Positions 28,889 through 42,675 of a DNA stretch of 64,000 nucleotides are shown here, one piece after another. This DNA comes from Aeromicrobium massiliense JC14. GTDB taxonomy: Bacteria > Actinomycetota > Actinomycetes > Propionibacteriales > Nocardioidaceae. Position numbers and translations under genes: made by a program. The notes under the pieces are model-generated. The model made no database searches, had not been told where the DNA came from, and saw only the letters and a program-made list of their open reading frames with translations. How positions within the stretch are numbered: the first letter of the stretch is position 1; every line of letters starts with the position of its first letter. The stretch covers positions 306,025-370,024 of the forward strand of contig NZ_HE978636.1 in the NCBI RefSeq assembly GCF_000312105.1, in the 5' to 3' direction.

Positions 28889-29839
28889 CTACTTGGCGTA
28901 GGAGTGCAGGCCGGGGACGAACAGGTTGACGCCGACGAAGTTGAACACGAACGTGGCGAAGCCGACCAGGCACAGGATGGCCGCGGCCTTGCCCTTCCAG
29001 CCGGCGGTGGCGCGGGCGTGCAGGTAGCCGGCGTAGACCACCCACGTGATGAACGCCCAGACCTCCTTGGGGTCCCAGCCCCAGTAGCGACCCCAGGCGT
29101 ACTGCGCCCAGATCGGGCCGGAGATGAGCGCGGCGAACGTCCAGACCGGGAAGGCGAACGCGTTGACCCGGTAGGCCAGCTGGTCCATGCGCGCGGCCGA
29201 CGGCATCCGCCAGAGCATGCCCGTGCGGGCGTCCTCCGGCGTGCGCTTCTCGGCCCGCGACTTCACCAGGAACAGGGCGGACGCGGCGGCGCCGATGACG
29301 AACGCGGAGCCGGCGATCATGGCGGCCAGGACGTGCATGACCAGCCAGTACGAGTGCAGCGCGGGCACGAGCGGGCCGGCCGGGACGTACACGAGCATCG
29401 AGGCACCCAGCACGACCGTGCCGACGCCGGTGATGATGCTGCCGACCCAGTCGATGTCCCAGACCTTGACCAGCACGAGGTAGGCGATCAGCGCGCACAT
29501 GACGGCGGCGCAGCCGAACTCGTACATGTTGCCCCACGGGACGCGCTCGGCCGCCAGGCCGCGCGTCACCAGGCCGGCGAGCAGGACGAGCGCGGCGAGC
29601 GAGGTCAGCGAGTAGCCGATGCTGCCGGCCATCGTGAAGCGCGTCTCGGTCTCGTCGTCGGCGGCTGGCTCCTCGGTCATCACGGCACCGTCGGCGCCGG
29701 CGGTCACGAGCCCCGGCTCGGCGGCGACCTTGCGGGCCACGGCCCACTGGACGAGGTAGGCCAGGAACGCCAGGCCCAGGACGACGGTCGCCGAGGCGAT
29801 CGCGTAGTTCGAGAACTGGGCGTACTGCTCCAGGCTCAT
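28889..29839 (-). CDS. ccsB: Cytochrome c maturation protein CcsB/CcsA (haem handling)
   Basis: System II cytochrome c synthesis: with ResB it moves haem across the membrane and attaches it to apocytochrome c. The 316 residues have about eight helices and the tryptophan-rich haem-handling motif WGRYWGWDPKEVWAFITW near residue 260, with the flanking conserved histidines in LHSYWLVMH and YLHARATAGWKG. The ATG overlaps the resB stop (ATGA). Last gene of the operon that starts upstream with hemL. Confidence 0.93.
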   Translation of the reverse strand: MSLEQYAQFSNYAIASATVVLGLAFLAYLVQWAVARKVAAEPGLVTAGADGAVMTEEPAADDETETRFTMAGSIGYSLTSLAALVLLAGLVTRGLAAERVPWGNMYEFGCAAVMCALIAYLVLVKVWDIDWVGSIITGVGTVVLGASMLVYVPAGPLVPALHSYWLVMHVLAAMIAGSAFVIGAAASALFLVKSRAEKRTPEDARTGMLWRMPSAARMDQLAYRVNAFAFPVWTFAALISGPIWAQYAWGRYWGWDPKEVWAFITWVVYAGYLHARATAGWKGKAAAILCLVGFATFVFNFVGVNLFVPGLHSYAK

Positions 29840-31413
29840 GCCTTCTCCGCCTTCTCCTTCGGGGCCTCGAGCGCGAGACGCTCGAGGAGGTCGTCCAGGT
29901 CACCGGTGACGTCTCCGCGGGGCACGCGGTCGAGCGCGGCGACCTCCACGATCGTACGGGAGCCCTCACGGCGGGCCCGAATCCACGTGCGACGGGGCTT
30001 GATCGCCAGCGACAGGATCAGGCCCAGCACGCCGACGCTCACGCCGACCAGCGGCACGACCTTGCCGGGCGACGCCGCGATCTGCAGACGGGCGAACTGG
30101 CGCAGCTCGACGAACTGGATCTTGGTGCCGTCGGGCAGCACCTGCTCCTGGCCCGGGCTCAGCGAGATGCGGAAGTTGCTGCCGTCGGGGTTCTTGACCT
30201 GCTCCATCTCGTCCTTGTCCAGGACGTAGACCGACTGCGGCACGCCCGCGTCCAGGCCGAGGTCGCCGGTCCAGGCGAACAGGCCCAGGATCGGGTTGGC
30301 CGCGGCCGGGAACACCGAGACGGACGCCTCGTCGTCGCCGGTGGTGACGGCGGTCGGCAGGAAGAAGCCCTGGAAGCCGATCTGGTACGGCTGGGCGTCG
30401 GGCACCTTCACGACGCCGCTGGAGGTGTAGGTCGGGTCCTCGGGCAGGAAGGGCACGGGCCCGTCGAAGGCGACGTTGCCCTTCGGGTCGGTCACCTTGA
30501 CGACCGGCGCGTAGCCCTGGCCGACCAGGAAGACGTCCGTGCCGTCGACGCTGAGCGGGTGGTTGACCTGGATGTCGAAGTCGCCGGTGTCGCCGTCGGG
30601 GGCGGTGTACGAGCCCTGCGCGCGGAACTGGCGGGGCGCGCCGCGCTGCTCACCCGTCGTCTGGAACCGCGCCGTGACGTCGTCCATCTGCAGCGAGAAC
30701 GGGGGCAGGTCGTGCGGCTCGAACAGGGAGCCGGACGAGAACTCGTCGTACTGGGTGAGGCTGTTGGAGAAGCCGGTGCCCTCGACGACGACGGCCGAGC
30801 CGCGGTAGCCGAACAGCGTGCCGGCGGCGACGCCCACGAGCACCACGACGAGGCTGACGTGGAAGACCAGGTTGCCGGCCTCGCGCAGGTAGCCCTTCTC
30901 GGCCCGCACCTCGGCGGTGCCGTCGTCGGTGACGACGTCGACCCGGTGGCCGCGCAGCGCCGTGCGGGCGGCGGCGACGACCTCGTCGAGCGACGCGTCG
31001 GTCTCCAGCGACGTCGACACGGGCAGCCGCAGCAGGTTGCGGGGGGCCTTGGGCGGACGCGCCCGCAGCGCCTTCGCGTAGACGACGGCGCGCGGGATGA
31101 TGCAGCCCACCAGCGAGACCATCAGCAGCAGGTAGATCGCGCTGAACCACGGCGACGTGTAGACGCTGAAGAAGCCCAGGTCGTCCAGCACCGGGGCCAG
31201 CTCGGGGTTGCGCGCGAAGTACGACTGCACCGCCTGGGCGTCCACGCCGCGCTGCGGGATCAGCGACCCCGGCACGGCGGCGATGGCCAGCAGCAGCAGC
31301 AGGAACAGCGCCGTCCGCATGGACGTCAGCTGGCGCCACAGCCAGCGGAGCATCTCCCGCCCGCCGAGCTCCGGCGCCGCGGTGGTCCTCTTCTTCGTCT
31401 TGGTCTCGTTCAC
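29836..31413 (-). CDS. resB: Cytochrome c biogenesis protein ResB
   Basis: Membrane partner of CcsB in System II maturation, 525 residues. Helices at residues ~35-55 (SMRTALFLLLLLAIAAVPGSLIPQ), ~92-112, ~168-190 and ~455-475 flank a large extracytoplasmic domain between residues ~190 and ~450. The C-terminus is basic and then acidic/Lys-rich. GTG start at 31413 preceded by GGAGG at an 8-nt spacing; that ribosome site lies inside the 27-codon ORF that overlaps it by 4 bases. Confidence 0.92.
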   Translation of the reverse strand: MNETKTKKRTTAAPELGGREMLRWLWRQLTSMRTALFLLLLLAIAAVPGSLIPQRGVDAQAVQSYFARNPELAPVLDDLGFFSVYTSPWFSAIYLLLMVSLVGCIIPRAVVYAKALRARPPKAPRNLLRLPVSTSLETDASLDEVVAAARTALRGHRVDVVTDDGTAEVRAEKGYLREAGNLVFHVSLVVVLVGVAAGTLFGYRGSAVVVEGTGFSNSLTQYDEFSSGSLFEPHDLPPFSLQMDDVTARFQTTGEQRGAPRQFRAQGSYTAPDGDTGDFDIQVNHPLSVDGTDVFLVGQGYAPVVKVTDPKGNVAFDGPVPFLPEDPTYTSSGVVKVPDAQPYQIGFQGFFLPTAVTTGDDEASVSVFPAAANPILGLFAWTGDLGLDAGVPQSVYVLDKDEMEQVKNPDGSNFRISLSPGQEQVLPDGTKIQFVELRQFARLQIAASPGKVVPLVGVSVGVLGLILSLAIKPRRTWIRARREGSRTIVEVAALDRVPRGDVTGDLDDLLERLALEAPKEKAEKA

Positions 31414-31493
31414 GGTCGCGCCTCCGTGAAGATCGCACGGTACGGACGCACGCCCGTGGAAGTCGTCATGGTTCGCTCGCTTCGCTCGTTCAC
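31410..31493 (-). CDS. 27-codon ORF bridging ccdA and resB (copy A)
   Basis: Starts with a GTG that overlaps the ccdA stop (GTGA) and ends with a TGA that overlaps the resB GTG start (GTGA). The product would read VNERSERT, then a variable middle, then [12 protein letters not shown]. It has the same length as copy B between rex and hemA, with 16 of 27 residues and 65 of 84 bases identical. Conserved bases cluster at the two ends; the distal block carries the GGAGG used by resB. Whether a peptide is made or this is only a repeated coupling element is not known. No known family recognised. Confidence 0.45.
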
Positions 31494-32242
31494 AGGGGAA
31501 GCTCCGTTCCGCCGATCCAGCCGCGCATCTCGTCGACCAGGCCGTCCCACAGCCCGCTGACGAGCAGGACGCCCATGACCACGAGCAGCGCGCCGCCGAC
31601 CAGGCCGACGAGCCGCTGGTGGCGCTTGAACCAGCGCAGCGCGCGGGTGAAGCGCGAGAACGCCACGGCGGCGAGGACGAACGGGATGCCCAGGCCCAGG
31701 CAGTAGACGAACGCCAGCAGGGCGCCGCGTCCGGCCGACGCGTCGTCGGCGCTCACCGCCAGGCCCAGCACCGCGCTGAGCGTCGGGCCGATGCACGGGG
31801 TCCAGCCCAGGCCGAACAGCACGCCGAGCAGCGGCGCCACGGCGACGCCGACCGCCGGCACGGTGTGCACGCGCACGTCGCGCTGCAGCCACGAGACGCC
31901 ACCCATGAAGGCCAGGCCCAGCACGATGACGACGATGCCCATGACGACGCTGATCGGTCGTTGGTAGTCCTTGAGCTCCTGCCCGACCGCGCCGAACAGC
32001 GTCCCGAGCGAGACGAAGACGGCGCTGAAGCCGAGCACGAACAGCACGGCGCCGAGCACGAGCCGTGAGCGGCGCGGGCCGTCCAGCTCGGTGACCGCCA
32101 TGCCCGACACGTACGACAGGTAGCCCGGCAGCAGCGGCACCACGCACGGGGAGAAGAACGACAGCAGGCCGGCCACGACGGCCAGGGGCACGGCCAGGAC
32201 GAGCGAGCCGTCCACGACGGTCTCGCCGATGCCGGTGATCAC
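31490..32242 (-). CDS. ccdA: Cytochrome c biogenesis protein CcdA
   Basis: Transfers reducing electrons from cytoplasmic thioredoxin across the membrane to ResA. The 250 residues have six helices and the two membrane cysteines in [20 protein letters not shown] and [17 protein letters not shown]. The GTG at 32242 overlaps the resA stop (GTGA); the longer frame beyond it is a resA shadow. In other actinobacteria resB follows directly; here a 27-codon ORF stands between. Confidence 0.93.
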
Positions 32243-32823
32243 GACCGCGACCCCTGGACGTCCTCGATCAGCCCGCGCAGGGTCGACTCGCTCGTGAACG
32301 GGCCGAGGTAGCGGACGGCCACCTTGCCGTCGGCATCGATGATCCAGGTCGTCGGCGTCGCCATGGTGGGCAGGCTGTCGGCGAACTGGACGGCGTAGGT
32401 GCCGGCGTCGTCGGCGAAGCTCGGGTAGGGCACCTCGCGCGAGCGCTCGAAGGCCCGGGCGCCGGCGACGTCGCGCGTGGCGATGCCGACGAACTGCACG
32501 CCGTCGTCGGCCAGCTCGCGGGCCACGGCGCTCAGCACCGGCTCCTCCGCGCGGCACGGCGGGCACCACGAGCCCCAGACGTTCACCACGACGACCTTGC
32601 CGGCGAACTGCTCGAGCGACAGCGGCTCGCCCTCGAGGTCCTCGCCCTCGAGGTCGGGAGCGTCCTTGCGGTCGGGGGCGTCGACGACGACGTAGCTGCC
32701 GTCACCGGAGATGTAGCCGCCACGGGTGCCGTCGGTGCCGTCCGAGCCGCCGCAGGCGGACAGGACGAGGGAGCACAGCGCCACGGCGAGGACGCCGCGG
32801 GCGCGTCGAGGGAGGACGTTCAT
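32239..32823 (-). CDS. resA: ResA/TlpA-type thiol-disulfide lipoprotein
   Basis: Extracytoplasmic thioredoxin-fold protein that reduces the CxxCH haem-binding cysteines of apocytochrome c. 194 residues: a lipoprotein signal with lipobox LSAC (Cys24), a thioredoxin fold, and the active site WCPPC at residues 86-90, with the cis-proline region TMATPTTW later. Thirteen bases after the histidine phosphatase gene and overlapping ccdA. Confidence 0.92.
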
Positions 32824-39594: not shown

Positions 39595-40515
39595 TCAGGA
39601 GACGGCCACGAGCGTGGCGGCGCCTTCGGCGAGCAGCTCGGCAGCGAGCCGCTCCCCGACCTCGGCGGGATCGGCGAGCGATCCCGTCGTGGACATGCGG
39701 ATGGTTCGGGCTCCGGTGAGGTCCCCGACGACGGCCCGGAGCCACAGCTCCTCGCCGTCGTCGCCGGAGACCACCTCGGCGAGTGCGCCCACGGGGGCGC
39801 TGCAGCCGGCCTCGAGCACCGCCAGCAGGCGGCGCTCGGCGGTGACGGCTGCCCGGGTGTCGGCGTGGTCGAGCTGCCCGAGCAGCTCCGCCGTCTTCTG
39901 GTCGTCGACGCGGCACTCGACCGCGAGCGCGCCCTGCCCGGGGGCGGGGAGCACCTGGATCGGGTCGAGCACCTCGGTCGCCTCGTCCTCGCGGCCCAGG
40001 CGCAGCAGCCCGGCCCGGGCGAGGACGACCGCGTCGAGGTCACCGTCGGTGACCTTGGCGATGCGCGTGTCGACGTTGCCGCGCACCCCCACGAGCTCGA
40101 TGCCCAGCCCGAGCGCGGACAGCTGCGCGACCCGGCGCGGGGCGCCGGTGCCCACGCGGGAGCCGGCCGGCAGCTCGCCGAGCGTGAGTCCGTCACGGGC
40201 GACGATGACGTCGCGGACGTCCTCGCGCTCGGGGATGGCCGCCAGCGTCAGGCGCTCGTCGGGGTAGGTCGGGATGTCCTTGAGCGAGTGCACGGCGAAG
40301 TCGACCTCGCCGGAGGCGAGCACCTCGCGCAGCTCGGCGACGAAGACGCCCGCGCCACCGGCCTCGACGAGGGGCGTGCGCGTGCGGTCACCCTCGGTGG
40401 AGACCGGCACGACCTCGACGTCGACGCCGGTGACCTCGGTGAGTCGGGCGGCGAAGGCGCCGGACTGGGCCAGCGCCAGGCGGCTCGCCCGGGTGCCCAT
40501 GCGCAGGGTCGTCAC
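39595..40515 (-). CDS. hemC: Hydroxymethylbilane synthase (porphobilinogen deaminase)
   Basis: Polymerises four porphobilinogens; 306 residues. RMGTRASRLALAQSG at the N-terminus, the substrate-binding VAELREVLASGEVDFAVHSLKDIP, TGAPRRVAQL, the PAPGQGALAVECR motif, and the dipyrromethane-cofactor Cys in LLAVLEAGCSAPVGALA. GTG start overlapping the hemA TGA. Complete and typical. Confidence 0.95.
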   Translation of the reverse strand: MTTLRMGTRASRLALAQSGAFAARLTEVTGVDVEVVPVSTEGDRTRTPLVEAGGAGVFVAELREVLASGEVDFAVHSLKDIPTYPDERLTLAAIPEREDVRDVIVARDGLTLGELPAGSRVGTGAPRRVAQLSALGLGIELVGVRGNVDTRIAKVTDGDLDAVVLARAGLLRLGREDEATEVLDPIQVLPAPGQGALAVECRVDDQKTAELLGQLDHADTRAAVTAERRLLAVLEAGCSAPVGALAEVVSGDDGEELWLRAVVGDLTGARTIRMSTTGSLADPAEVGERLAAELLAEGAATLVAVS

Positions 40516-41828
40516 GCGCCCTCACCCGCCTTGTCGGCCTTGTCGCCCGAGCGCTTCGTGACCGCGGCGATGGCTGCCGGGTCGAGCGCGAACAGGTCGG
40601 CCAGGGCGTCGGCGTAGGTCAGGCCGCCGTCGCCGTCGACGAGCTGCTGCACCCGGACGGTCGGGGCGTGCAGGATCTTGTCGGCGACCCGGTTGACGGT
40701 GTGCCGCACCTCGGCGAGCACCTCGTCGCTCACGTCGTTGCGGCGGGCGAAGCGCTCCATCTCGGCGCTCACGATCTCGGTGGCCATCGTGCGCAGCGCG
40801 ACGACGGTCGGCGTGACGCGCGCGGCGGCCTTGGCGGCCAGGAAGGCCTCGACCTCGGCGTCGACGATCGACCGCACCGCGGTGACGTCCTGCGCCGCGG
40901 CCGTGTCGGAGCCGCGCTCGGCGAGCAGCGCGATGTCGACGAGCGTGACGCCGGCCATGTCGGCGACCGTGGCGTCGACGTCGCGCGGCAGCGCCATGTC
41001 GATGAGCGTCATCGGCCGTCCGTCGTGCTGGGCGCGCTCGATCCGCTCGCGGTCGAGCACCAGCCCGCTGGCGCCGGTGCACGTGATGACGACGTCGGCG
41101 TGGTGCAGCTCGTTGTCGAGCGAGCCCCAGCGCACGGCGCCGACGCCGTAGGTCTCGACGAGCTCATAGGCGCGCTGGTACGTGCGGTTGGCGACCATGA
41201 TGCGGGCGTTGCTGACGCCGGACTCGACCAGCGTCTTGACCGCCAGGCTCGACATCGTGCCCGCGCCGATGACCAGGAAACGGGTCTCGGGGTCGTGCAC
41301 GACGTGGCCCGCAGCGTCCAGCGACGCGGTGACGATCGAGGGGCCGAGCAGGTCGATGCCGGTCTCGGCGTGGCCCCGCTTGCCGATGCGCAGCGCCTGC
41401 TGGAACAGCGTGTTGAGCGCCGAGCCGACCGTGGACTCGTCCTGGCCGAGCTGCAGCGCGTCGCGCACCTGGCCCAGGATCTGGCTCTCGCCGATGATCA
41501 TCGAGTCCAGGCCGGCGGCCACCTCGAACAGGTGGGCCACGGCGGCGTCGTCGTAGTGGACGTAGGCGTGCCGGACGAACGCGTCACGGTCGAGGCCGGC
41601 GTGCTCGGCGAGCAGCGTCGAGACCTCCTCGACGGCGCCGTGGAAGCGCTCGGCCTCCACGTAGACCTCGACCCGGTTGCACGTCGACACGACCGCGGCC
41701 TCGGAGACGTACGGGGTCTCCAGCGCGCGGTGCGACAGCTTGACGACGGACTCCGTGTCGAGCGAGACCCGCTCCAGCAGCTCGATCGGCGCGGTCTTGT
41801 GGGACAGCCCCACGACCAGCACGCTCAT
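40512..41828 (-). CDS. hemA: Glutamyl-tRNA reductase
   Basis: First step of C5-pathway tetrapyrrole synthesis, reducing glutamyl-tRNA to glutamate-1-semialdehyde. 438 residues: GLSHKTAPIELLERV, the catalytic Cys50 in VVSTCNRVEVYVE, the GESQILGQVRDAL motif, the NADPH Rossmann LVIGAGTMSSLAVKTL and the C-terminal dimerisation helices (ERFARRNDVSDEVLAEVRHTVNR). The ATG at 41828 overlaps the stop of the 27-codon ORF (ATGA), so its translation is coupled to that ORF and not directly to rex. Confidence 0.96.
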   Translation of the reverse strand: MSVLVVGLSHKTAPIELLERVSLDTESVVKLSHRALETPYVSEAAVVSTCNRVEVYVEAERFHGAVEEVSTLLAEHAGLDRDAFVRHAYVHYDDAAVAHLFEVAAGLDSMIIGESQILGQVRDALQLGQDESTVGSALNTLFQQALRIGKRGHAETGIDLLGPSIVTASLDAAGHVVHDPETRFLVIGAGTMSSLAVKTLVESGVSNARIMVANRTYQRAYELVETYGVGAVRWGSLDNELHHADVVITCTGASGLVLDRERIERAQHDGRPMTLIDMALPRDVDATVADMAGVTLVDIALLAERGSDTAAAQDVTAVRSIVDAEVEAFLAAKAAARVTPTVVALRTMATEIVSAEMERFARRNDVSDEVLAEVRHTVNRVADKILHAPTVRVQQLVDGDGGLTYADALADLFALDPAAIAAVTKRSGDKADKAGEGA

Positions 41829-41908
41829 CGGCGCACCTCCGTGAAGATCGAACGGTACGGACGTCCGCCGATGACAGCGCTGATCGTTCGCTCGCTGCGC
41901 TCGCTCAT
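41825..41908 (-). CDS. 27-codon ORF bridging rex and hemA (copy B)
   Basis: ATG overlaps the rex TGA (ATGA) and the TGA overlaps the hemA ATG (ATGA). The product would begin MSERSERT, vary in the middle (ISAVIGG) and end RPYRSIFTEVRR. Same length as copy A at ccdA/resB. A block of 28 bases at the 3' end differs from copy A at a single base and contains ACGGAGG, the probable ribosome site of hemA. The 5' block GAGCG-AGCGAGCGAAC is the kind of GCTCGC-rich sequence frequent at actinobacterial gene ends. I recognise no family. Confidence 0.45.
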   Translation of the reverse strand: MSERSERTISAVIGGRPYRSIFTEVRR

Positions 41909-42600
41909 ACCTGCACCTCCAGCACGGGGTCGAGGGACGAGCCGGCCTTGCGCTGCTCGTGGTACGCCAGGATCTGCAGCTCGATCGACAGGTCGACCTT
42001 GCGCACGTCGACGTTGTCCGGGACGTCGAGCACGACCGGCGCGAAGTTGAGGATGCTCGTGACGCCGGCGGCGACCAGCGCGTCGGCCACGTCCTGGGCG
42101 GCCTCGGCCGGCGTCGCGATGATGCCGATCGAGATGCCGCGCTCGGCCACGACGGCGGGCAGGTCGGCCATGGCGCTGACGGTCAGGCCGGCGACCGTGG
42201 TGCCCACGCGGGCCGGGTCGGCGTCCACGAGCGCGGCGACGTGGATGCCGCGCGGCGTGAAGCCCTGGTAGTTCGACAGCGCCTGGCCCAGGTTGCCGAC
42301 GCCGACGAGCACGACGGCCCACTCCTGGGTCTGGCCGATCTCGCGGGCGATCTGGTAGCGCAGGTACTCGACCTCGTAGCCGACGCCGCGGGTGCCGTAG
42401 GAGCCCAGGTACGACAGGTCCTTGCGCAGCTTCGCGGGGTTGACCCCGGCCGCGGACGAGAGGTCCTGCGACGAGCAGGTGGCGACGCCCTGGTCGGAGA
42501 GCTCGGTGAGGGCACGCAGGTACAGCGGGAGCCGAGCGACCGTCGCGTCGGGGACGCCGCGGTCGGACGCACCTCCGCGGGGGGTTCTCAAGACTGTCAC
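41905..42600 (-). CDS. rex: Redox-sensing transcriptional repressor Rex
   Basis: DNA-binding repressor released by NADH; controls respiratory genes. 231 residues: an N-terminal winged helix (ARLPLYLRALTELSDQGV, ELSSAAGVNPAKLRKDLSYLGSYGTRG-type block, seen here as SSAAGVNPAKLRKDLS), then an NAD(H) Rossmann domain VVLVGVGNLGQALSNY, and the swapped C-terminal helix. I chose the GTG at 42600, which has AGGAG five bases upstream; a TTG eight codons earlier lacks support. It heads the rex-hemACDB operon and its promoter carries a Rex box, so it should repress itself. Confidence 0.93.
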   Translation of the reverse strand: MTVLRTPRGGASDRGVPDATVARLPLYLRALTELSDQGVATCSSQDLSSAAGVNPAKLRKDLSYLGSYGTRGVGYEVEYLRYQIAREIGQTQEWAVVLVGVGNLGQALSNYQGFTPRGIHVAALVDADPARVGTTVAGLTVSAMADLPAVVAERGISIGIIATPAEAAQDVADALVAAGVTSILNFAPVVLDVPDNVDVRKVDLSIELQILAYHEQRKAGSSLDPVLEVQV

Positions 42601-42675
42601 GCTGCTCCTGCTCCGCCTGGTCAAGGGGGGCGGCCCGGGGATCGTCCGGGTCGGACCGGCGGTGTGCCGAGGTCC

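Follow-up and report, generated by a model that had tools for sequence, protein, structure and literature searches.

In the genome of Aeromicrobium massiliense JC14, the stop codon of ccdA is joined to the start codon of resB by an open reading frame of only 27 codons, and a frame of exactly the same length joins rex to hemA. This raised the question of what such a short frame does between two genes, and the whole 64,000-nt stretch of DNA that carries both (hereafter the window) was analysed together with related genomes. A first-pass annotation of the window had proposed either a short peptide made in step with haem enzymes or a ready-made translational coupler that has been copied and whose 3′ end supplies the GGAGG of the next gene.

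Two related mini-ORFs bridge overlapping genes in the window

Both 84-nt frames were present as described, on the minus strand, each entering from the stop codon of one gene and leaving in the start codon of the next through an RTGA overlap. Recounting gave the same agreement between the two as had been reported, 65 of 84 bases and 16 of 27 residues, while the runner-up ungapped match within the window reached 43 of 84 bases. When the window was scanned with a covariance model with filters off, two strong matches were obtained, and the third-ranked one had an E value of 0.0013. Pfam likewise returned ResB, DsbD_TM (CcdA), GlutR (HemA) and both Rex domains, in keeping with the gene names first given. 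The features are as follows.

31410..31493, minus strand: element copy 1, a 27-codon mini-ORF opening in the GTGA at the ccdA stop and closing in the GTGA at the resB start (covariance-model E 1.3e-19)
41825..41908, minus strand: element copy 2, a 27-codon mini-ORF encoding MSERSERTISAVIGGRPYRSIFTEVRR and a stop, opening in the ATGA at the rex stop and closing in the ATGA at the hemA start (covariance-model E 6.2e-21)
31411..31459, minus strand: hairpin at the 3′ end of copy 1; the resB start codon and the Shine-Dalgarno GGAGG (31421-31425) both lie in its 3′ arm
41825..41874, minus strand: 3′ hairpin of copy 2, its 3′ arm comprising GGAGG (41836-41840) and the hemA start codon
29836..31413, minus strand: resB, downstream of copy 1 (PF05140, E 2e-137)
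31490..32257, minus strand: ccdA, upstream of copy 1 (PF02683, DsbD_TM, E 1.7e-14; exact at the 3′ end only)
40512..41828, minus strand: hemA, downstream of copy 2 (PF05201, GlutR, E 1.5e-50)
41905..42624, minus strand: rex, upstream of copy 2 (PF06971 and PF02629; 3′ end exact, start as set by the ORF tool)
29836..29839, minus strand: empty target site after resB, a plain ATGA overlap where Aeromicrobium sp. IC_218 carries an 84-nt copy (locus L208)

The unit is a dispersed repeat of the genus and is not tied to haem genes

A whole-genome search, which the first-pass annotation had recommended, showed that the two window copies belong to a genus-wide family. In the 3.32-Mb genome blastn found 21 places below 1e-6; 19 of these served to build a covariance model, which gave 29 matches below 1e-4, that is, about 30 copies of a short repeat that is both dispersed and tandem. 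At one place three units stand head-to-tail with an 80-nt period, the closing RTGA of one serving as the opening RTGA of the next. Among 58 genomes scanned at E up to 0.01, matches occurred in 32 of the 37 of the same genus (own genome included), with 64 in the richest single genome, and weakly in 2 of the 21 from other genera, a part of the scan that ran under stricter filters. A pattern scan of the genome collection yielded 61 stretches, of which 58 came from Aeromicrobium-named genomes, two from metagenome-assembled genomes of broader name (L136, L146) and one from a Rikenellaceae contig (L130) that had no model match at E up to 1e-4. Viral contigs gave no stretch in the pattern scan, and a phage origin was rejected.

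Class-wide, the genus-wide model matched at least 43 of 393 genomes at E up to 0.001, in at least 14 of 137 genera, these counts being lower bounds because 11 candidates per genome were scored. They comprised strong matches in 11 of the 12 listed Aeromicrobium genomes and weak ones in at least eight genomes of other genera in the family and at least 24 further genomes. In outside loci taken from 19 of the 32 matching genomes beyond Aeromicrobium, 14 of 19 held a mini-ORF of fewer than 50 codons ending in an RTGA that opens a frame of at least 60 codons, and five did not. These outside elements have an MSERSER-like start in common with the Aeromicrobium family and differ from it in their hairpins; in 13 of the 14 mini-ORF loci the first base of the start codon lay within a predicted stem (single-sequence structures).

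For the comparisons below, a set of 134 elements was drawn from the first 178 loci, picked by strong matches or exact pattern, a choice that under-represents weak or decayed copies. Five of 166 matches lacking NTGA at both ends were dropped, repeats of one place were merged, and one truncated second unit (L002 at 1580) was included. Of these 134, 113 are non-tandem, meaning that they have no unit directly upstream and no near-identical flanks.

Both window sites adjoin haem or cytochrome c genes, as had been observed at the outset, and for these two sites the observation stands. As a general rule it failed: Pfam scans of the downstream proteins at 20 of the 26 other own-genome sites listed returned many unrelated kinds, namely NUDIX, two kinds of ABC permease, acetolactate synthase small subunit, an amino acid permease, a class I Cys-type tRNA synthetase, FliJ, a NuoK-type protein, DUF3159, SpoU, MoaC, DNA polymerase III delta′, lysine/ornithine monooxygenase, a FliI/T3SS-type ATPase, prephenate dehydrogenase, an aminotransferase, AlkZ, MDMPI and LUD, with one protein lacking a match. 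Given this diversity, the element sites are not haem-specific, and a haem link of the element was not supported.

Empty and occupied sites in relatives indicate insertion at RTGA

Because relatives show both empty and occupied orthologous sites, the element is taken to be mobile, targeted to RTGA and able to chain head-to-tail. It was present at the ccdA/resB junction in 5 of the 30 loci read and at the rex/hemA junction in 8 of the 29 that could be read (L101 being cut off by the end of its contig), whereas the other 46 junction loci, counted by eye, comprised 35 plain RTGA overlaps, the rest being CTGA overlaps or short spacers. At rex/hemA, for example, genome G035 has a bare ATGA where G020 has ATGA-[element]-ATGA preceded by the same 12 bases.

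Comparison with the closest relative, Aeromicrobium sp. IC_218 (G062), gave the same picture in both directions. Seventeen of 30 IC_218 loci were placed in the own genome, of which nine are shared, five are empty here (L189, L199, L203, L207, L208), one (L190) corresponds to a short element-like stretch here, and two (L198/L206) fall in one array and are counted as neither. Conversely, 8 of 22 own loci were placed in IC_218, with four shared, two empty there (L009, L011) and two in one array (L014/L015), likewise counted as neither. At L208, the junction behind resB, the window has the bare ATGA at 29836-29839 and IC_218 an 84-nt copy.

The ends of the element bear on how it joins its target. 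The same R occurred at both ends in 104 of the 113 non-tandem copies. In all nine copies with differing 5′ and 3′ R (of 133), the hairpin arm paired with the 3′ R, and in 12 of the 133 it fitted the R of neither end. Across the seven empty sites read, the R of the empty allele equalled the 5′ R in seven and the 3′ R in six, the exception being L208. The 5′ RTGA therefore looks native, and the 3′ RTG looks as if brought by the element. A long target-site duplication was disfavoured, since pairs such as L207/L222 and L208/window showed no duplicate past the core and the 3′ R followed the hairpin in the nine mismatched copies; for these reasons we prefer joining at a shared TGA core. Matching of the flanks around RTGA did exceed that of shuffles at -1 to -5, +1 and +2, and likewise at -13 to -15 and +8, an excess that could also come from decayed tandem copies upstream.

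Several loci deserve separate mention. Two copies (L038, L045) end in CTGA with a matching TCAG arm, the hairpin following even a non-RTG end. A second ccdA lies on a 77-kb contig (G000:C4:55230-55994, L218); its protein is 98% identical to that of the window, and DNA similarity ends at window position 31490, the 5′ edge of copy 1. At G000:C1:689183-690650 (L021, L009), two copies about 1.3 kb apart precede a FliI/T3SS-type ATPase gene and a fliJ-like gene, and the fliJ site is empty in IC_218.

A covarying hairpin covers the start signal of the next gene

The last 50 nt of the element form a 16-bp stem whose 3′ arm takes in both the GGAGG and the RTG at which the next gene starts. When 19 own-genome copies were aligned with MAFFT, 94.7% of cells were paired, compared with 85.0% after shuffling and 35-45% when slid; double changes occurred at 10 of the 16 pairs in this alignment, which was not fitted to the structure, and these values were equalled by none of 500 shuffles. 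Genus-wide, across 103 distinct sequences, 93.4% of cells were paired versus 74.1%, double changes were found at 14 of 16 pairs and covariation was 0.529 versus 0.189, these counts resting on an alignment fitted to the structure model. It is on covariation that the case for the hairpin rests, since not every sequence by itself folds better than its shuffled versions, copy 1 being no better than its dinucleotide shuffles (z 0.05).

Pairing was markedly strand-asymmetric. On the sense strand, G-U cells numbered 136 and A-C cells 11. The side with the Shine-Dalgarno is fixed and could contribute part of this excess; the six outermost pairs, which contain neither codon nor Shine-Dalgarno, gave 32 and 3. 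This asymmetry indicates that the folding strand is most likely the messenger. Furthermore, bases around the start had a predicted unpaired probability of 0.10 in the element and of 0.44 at the native start that it took over, the element having the lower value in 111 of 113 copies. No 4-base match to AGGAGG preceded the 3′ start in 36 of 113 copies. A search of the window with Rfam at the gathering threshold gave no match, and a known Rfam cis-regulatory RNA was rejected on that count.

These data bear on the possibility that the unit is a selfish element only, with a hairpin that serves DNA transposition and an open frame that operons merely tolerate. Its mobility, dispersal, tandem arrays, targeted tetranucleotide and hairpin at one end would all suit such an account, and REP/RAYT and IS200/IS605-derived elements are likewise short and dispersed, with a hairpin and a short target motif. 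Unlike those, the present element keeps a reading frame and pairs strand-specifically, and the Y1 transposase PF01797, the one type searched, was found in none of 49 Aeromicrobium genomes, whereas 5 of 14 control genomes matched. The excess of G-U over A-C points to sense RNA, though a fixed single DNA strand could mimic it, and the covarying stem terminates at the start codon and has the Shine-Dalgarno within it. We therefore regard a purely selfish element as unlikely.

The reading frame is kept whereas the peptide is free to change

A length that is a multiple of three was found in 125 of the 134 copies with NTGA at both ends, and none of these 125 contained an internal stop; the remaining nine, of 83, 85 or 86 nt, were out of frame, one of them being the truncated unit. 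Among 120 distinct in-frame copies, the RTG frame was stop-free in all 120, compared with 57 and 87 for the other sense frames and 81, 10 and 110 for the antisense frames; frames in such GC-rich DNA are often open by default, as the antisense frame open in 110 of 120 illustrates. The internal ORF overlaps the next start by 4 nt (RTGA), and from this downstream start the right frame was open for at least 60 codons in 112 of 134 copies, versus 84 of 134 for the adjacent control frame. At the two junctions in relatives, mini-ORFs measured 51, 84, 87 or 108 nt and were open and ended in ATGA in all 10 examined.

Synonymous and non-synonymous changes were compared over 30 disjoint pairs, as had been suggested, giving a pN/pS of 1.00 overall, 0.74 in the SERSER part and 1.05 to 1.18 elsewhere, with 131, 112 and 105 pairwise differences at the three codon positions. 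The copies are related by descent, and neither these values nor the frame counts are independent trials. No Pfam family matched the 27-residue peptide.

The surroundings of the copies were informative as well. In 91 of the 113 non-tandem copies, the 5′ TGA closes a frame of at least 60 codons (or one running off the locus), and in the other 22 no upstream gene ends there. Broken frames were found in 4 of these 22 and in 3 of the 91 at gene ends (Fisher p 0.026). A leaderless promoter motif, TANNNT, preceded 3 of 22 and 5 of 91 copies, respectively, which is no clear signal. A kept frame, a pN/pS of 1.00 and broken frames that are commoner where no upstream gene arrives are together as one would expect if translation through the element, rather than the peptide product, is what matters. 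The same counts weigh mostly against a mere DNA repeat, which the first-pass annotation had expected to betray itself by non-coding copies and broken frames: the large majority are in frame and at gene ends, and a minority of 9 of 134 and 22 of 113, respectively, fits the repeat.

Individual copies varied further. At the rex/hemA junction of G005 (L117), a GC-rich inverted-repeat-like stretch lies inside the copy, and the 108-nt mini-ORF is still open. In IC_218 the same junction (L089) carries two tandem units, the first shrunk to 51 nt and in frame. Three loci (L031, L033, L137) have no upstream gene and share similar downstream sequence; two of them are 83 nt, with a mini-ORF that ends at the hairpin foot, possibly reflecting a different use.

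A ligand- or stress-sensing attenuator, a leader that would regulate the gene behind it through ribosomes stalled on particular codons of the mini-ORF, could account for a leader ORF that overlaps a hairpin hiding the start and having a loop conserved in part. It would be at odds with residues that vary freely, with downstream genes that share no common pathway and with the lack of any Rfam match in the window, and we consider it very improbable. Almost no credence can be given to the idea that the 27 residues form a functional peptide family, produced alongside the enzymes of haem and cytochrome c: the haem neighbours of both window copies, the frame open in nearly all copies and the lower pN/pS of the SERSER part would speak for it, and the neutral overall ratio, the absence of a Pfam family and the unrelated genes behind the 20 other copies speak against.

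A mobile translational coupler is the best reading

The unit is probably a short mobile element acting as a translational coupler at stop/start overlaps. The coupler alternative of the first-pass annotation is thus the one that copy number, empty sites, kept frame and hairpin covariation support well at the level of sequence. A unit of 80 nt, seen as RTGA-76-RTGA, would insert at an RTGA where a stop and the next start overlap. Judging from its anatomy and from the empty sites, the old start codon and ribosome-binding site of the gene would then serve the mini-ORF, and the gene would receive from the element a new RTG start with its own GGAGG. As the covariation suggests, this new start and its Shine-Dalgarno would lie buried in the 16-bp hairpin of the mRNA. 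A ribosome leaving the upstream gene would reinitiate on the mini-ORF, melt the hairpin while translating it, stop at the TGA and restart on the overlapping RTG. Downstream translation would be kept in this way, but would come to depend on ribosomes arriving through the mini-ORF, whose peptide would itself be of no importance. Such passage and restart would make insertion into operons tolerable and head-to-tail chaining possible.

Covariation, strand asymmetry and a frame kept without peptide selection thus provide comparative evidence for how an element may sit in operons without silencing them, by means of a mini-ORF and a hairpin presumably opened by the ribosome. They also point to a natural, portable coupler of about 84 nt.

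The element is of the same kind as mycobacterial MIRUs

A paper by Supply et al. (1997, Mol Microbiol 26:991) is said to concern MIRU, the mycobacterial interspersed repetitive units. A 2025 review credits the coupling idea to a 1997 paper. The first-pass annotation knew of no described family, but one of this kind has been described in the MIRUs, which reportedly appear mobile and settle on start codons in such a way that an internal ORF couples at -4 nt (PMC12548453). Other sources describe MIRUs as 40-100 bp long and present at 41 locations in one genome (PMC2734929), give units of 77 and 53 bp (PMC4213456) and print the 53-bp MIRU292 unit (Table 1 of PMC7977185).

By these accounts, both kinds of element are small, dispersed, tandem, mobile, ORF-carrying and coupled at -4 spacing, and the lengths of 77 and 53 bp, like the 80 and 83 of the present element, equal 2 modulo 3. 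Read in tandem, the published MIRU292 has an open ATGA-to-ATGA frame, in two phases. With the single MIRU unit compared, the element has the 11-mer GAGCGCAGCGA in common (E 0.002 in a one-sequence search); that unit gave no nhmmer match to the A3 profile of the element and is otherwise unlike it in sequence, and its predicted stem lies beside the start codon, whereas the stem of the Aeromicrobium element lies over it. The hosts differ too, being Mycobacterium for MIRU and Aeromicrobium (Nocardioidaceae) for the element. By analogy, the Aeromicrobium element is of the same kind as MIRU and would work like it.

Hiding of a downstream start by a hairpin has a further parallel in genes VII and IX of phage f1, which the review presents as translational coupling by RNA unfolding, the hidden start being opened or occluded by the upstream ribosome (PMC12548453). 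The likeness lies in the hairpin over the downstream start, which in the Aeromicrobium element would be opened by the ribosome, and the difference is that f1 VII/IX is a fixed gene pair, whereas the element is a portable, multi-copy insertion. A primer based on a repeat of another mycobacterium contains one of the sequence words considered (PMC10117815). Within the open-licence PMC literature, no paper was found that treats an MSERSER repeat or, in Aeromicrobium, an element of this type.

The kind of element is already known from MIRUs, and what appears new is the Aeromicrobium family, its covarying start-hiding hairpin and the MSERSER elements resembling it in other families of the class. This suggests that elements of the MIRU type are not confined to mycobacteria, and it makes the MIRU-type coupling idea directly testable with simple reporters. 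A wider picture, which we put forward tentatively and hold to be somewhat doubtful, is that mobile RNA couplers occur across many actinobacterial families, MIRUs being one branch, and copy themselves into stop/start overlaps, making loose operon neighbours strictly coupled. They would move without a known transposase, joining at the TGA core with a hairpin-matched start codon, and their insertions would rewire operon stoichiometry and stay transparent to ribosomes.

Lastly, three genes behind copies in the own genome begin with VSERSER, those for the NUDIX protein, the amino acid permease and the DUF3159 protein (L002:1581, L007:1581 and L015:1581). In each, the 5′ part of a further unit seems to be fused in frame; the element may thus add N-terminal extensions and may explain genes that begin in this way.
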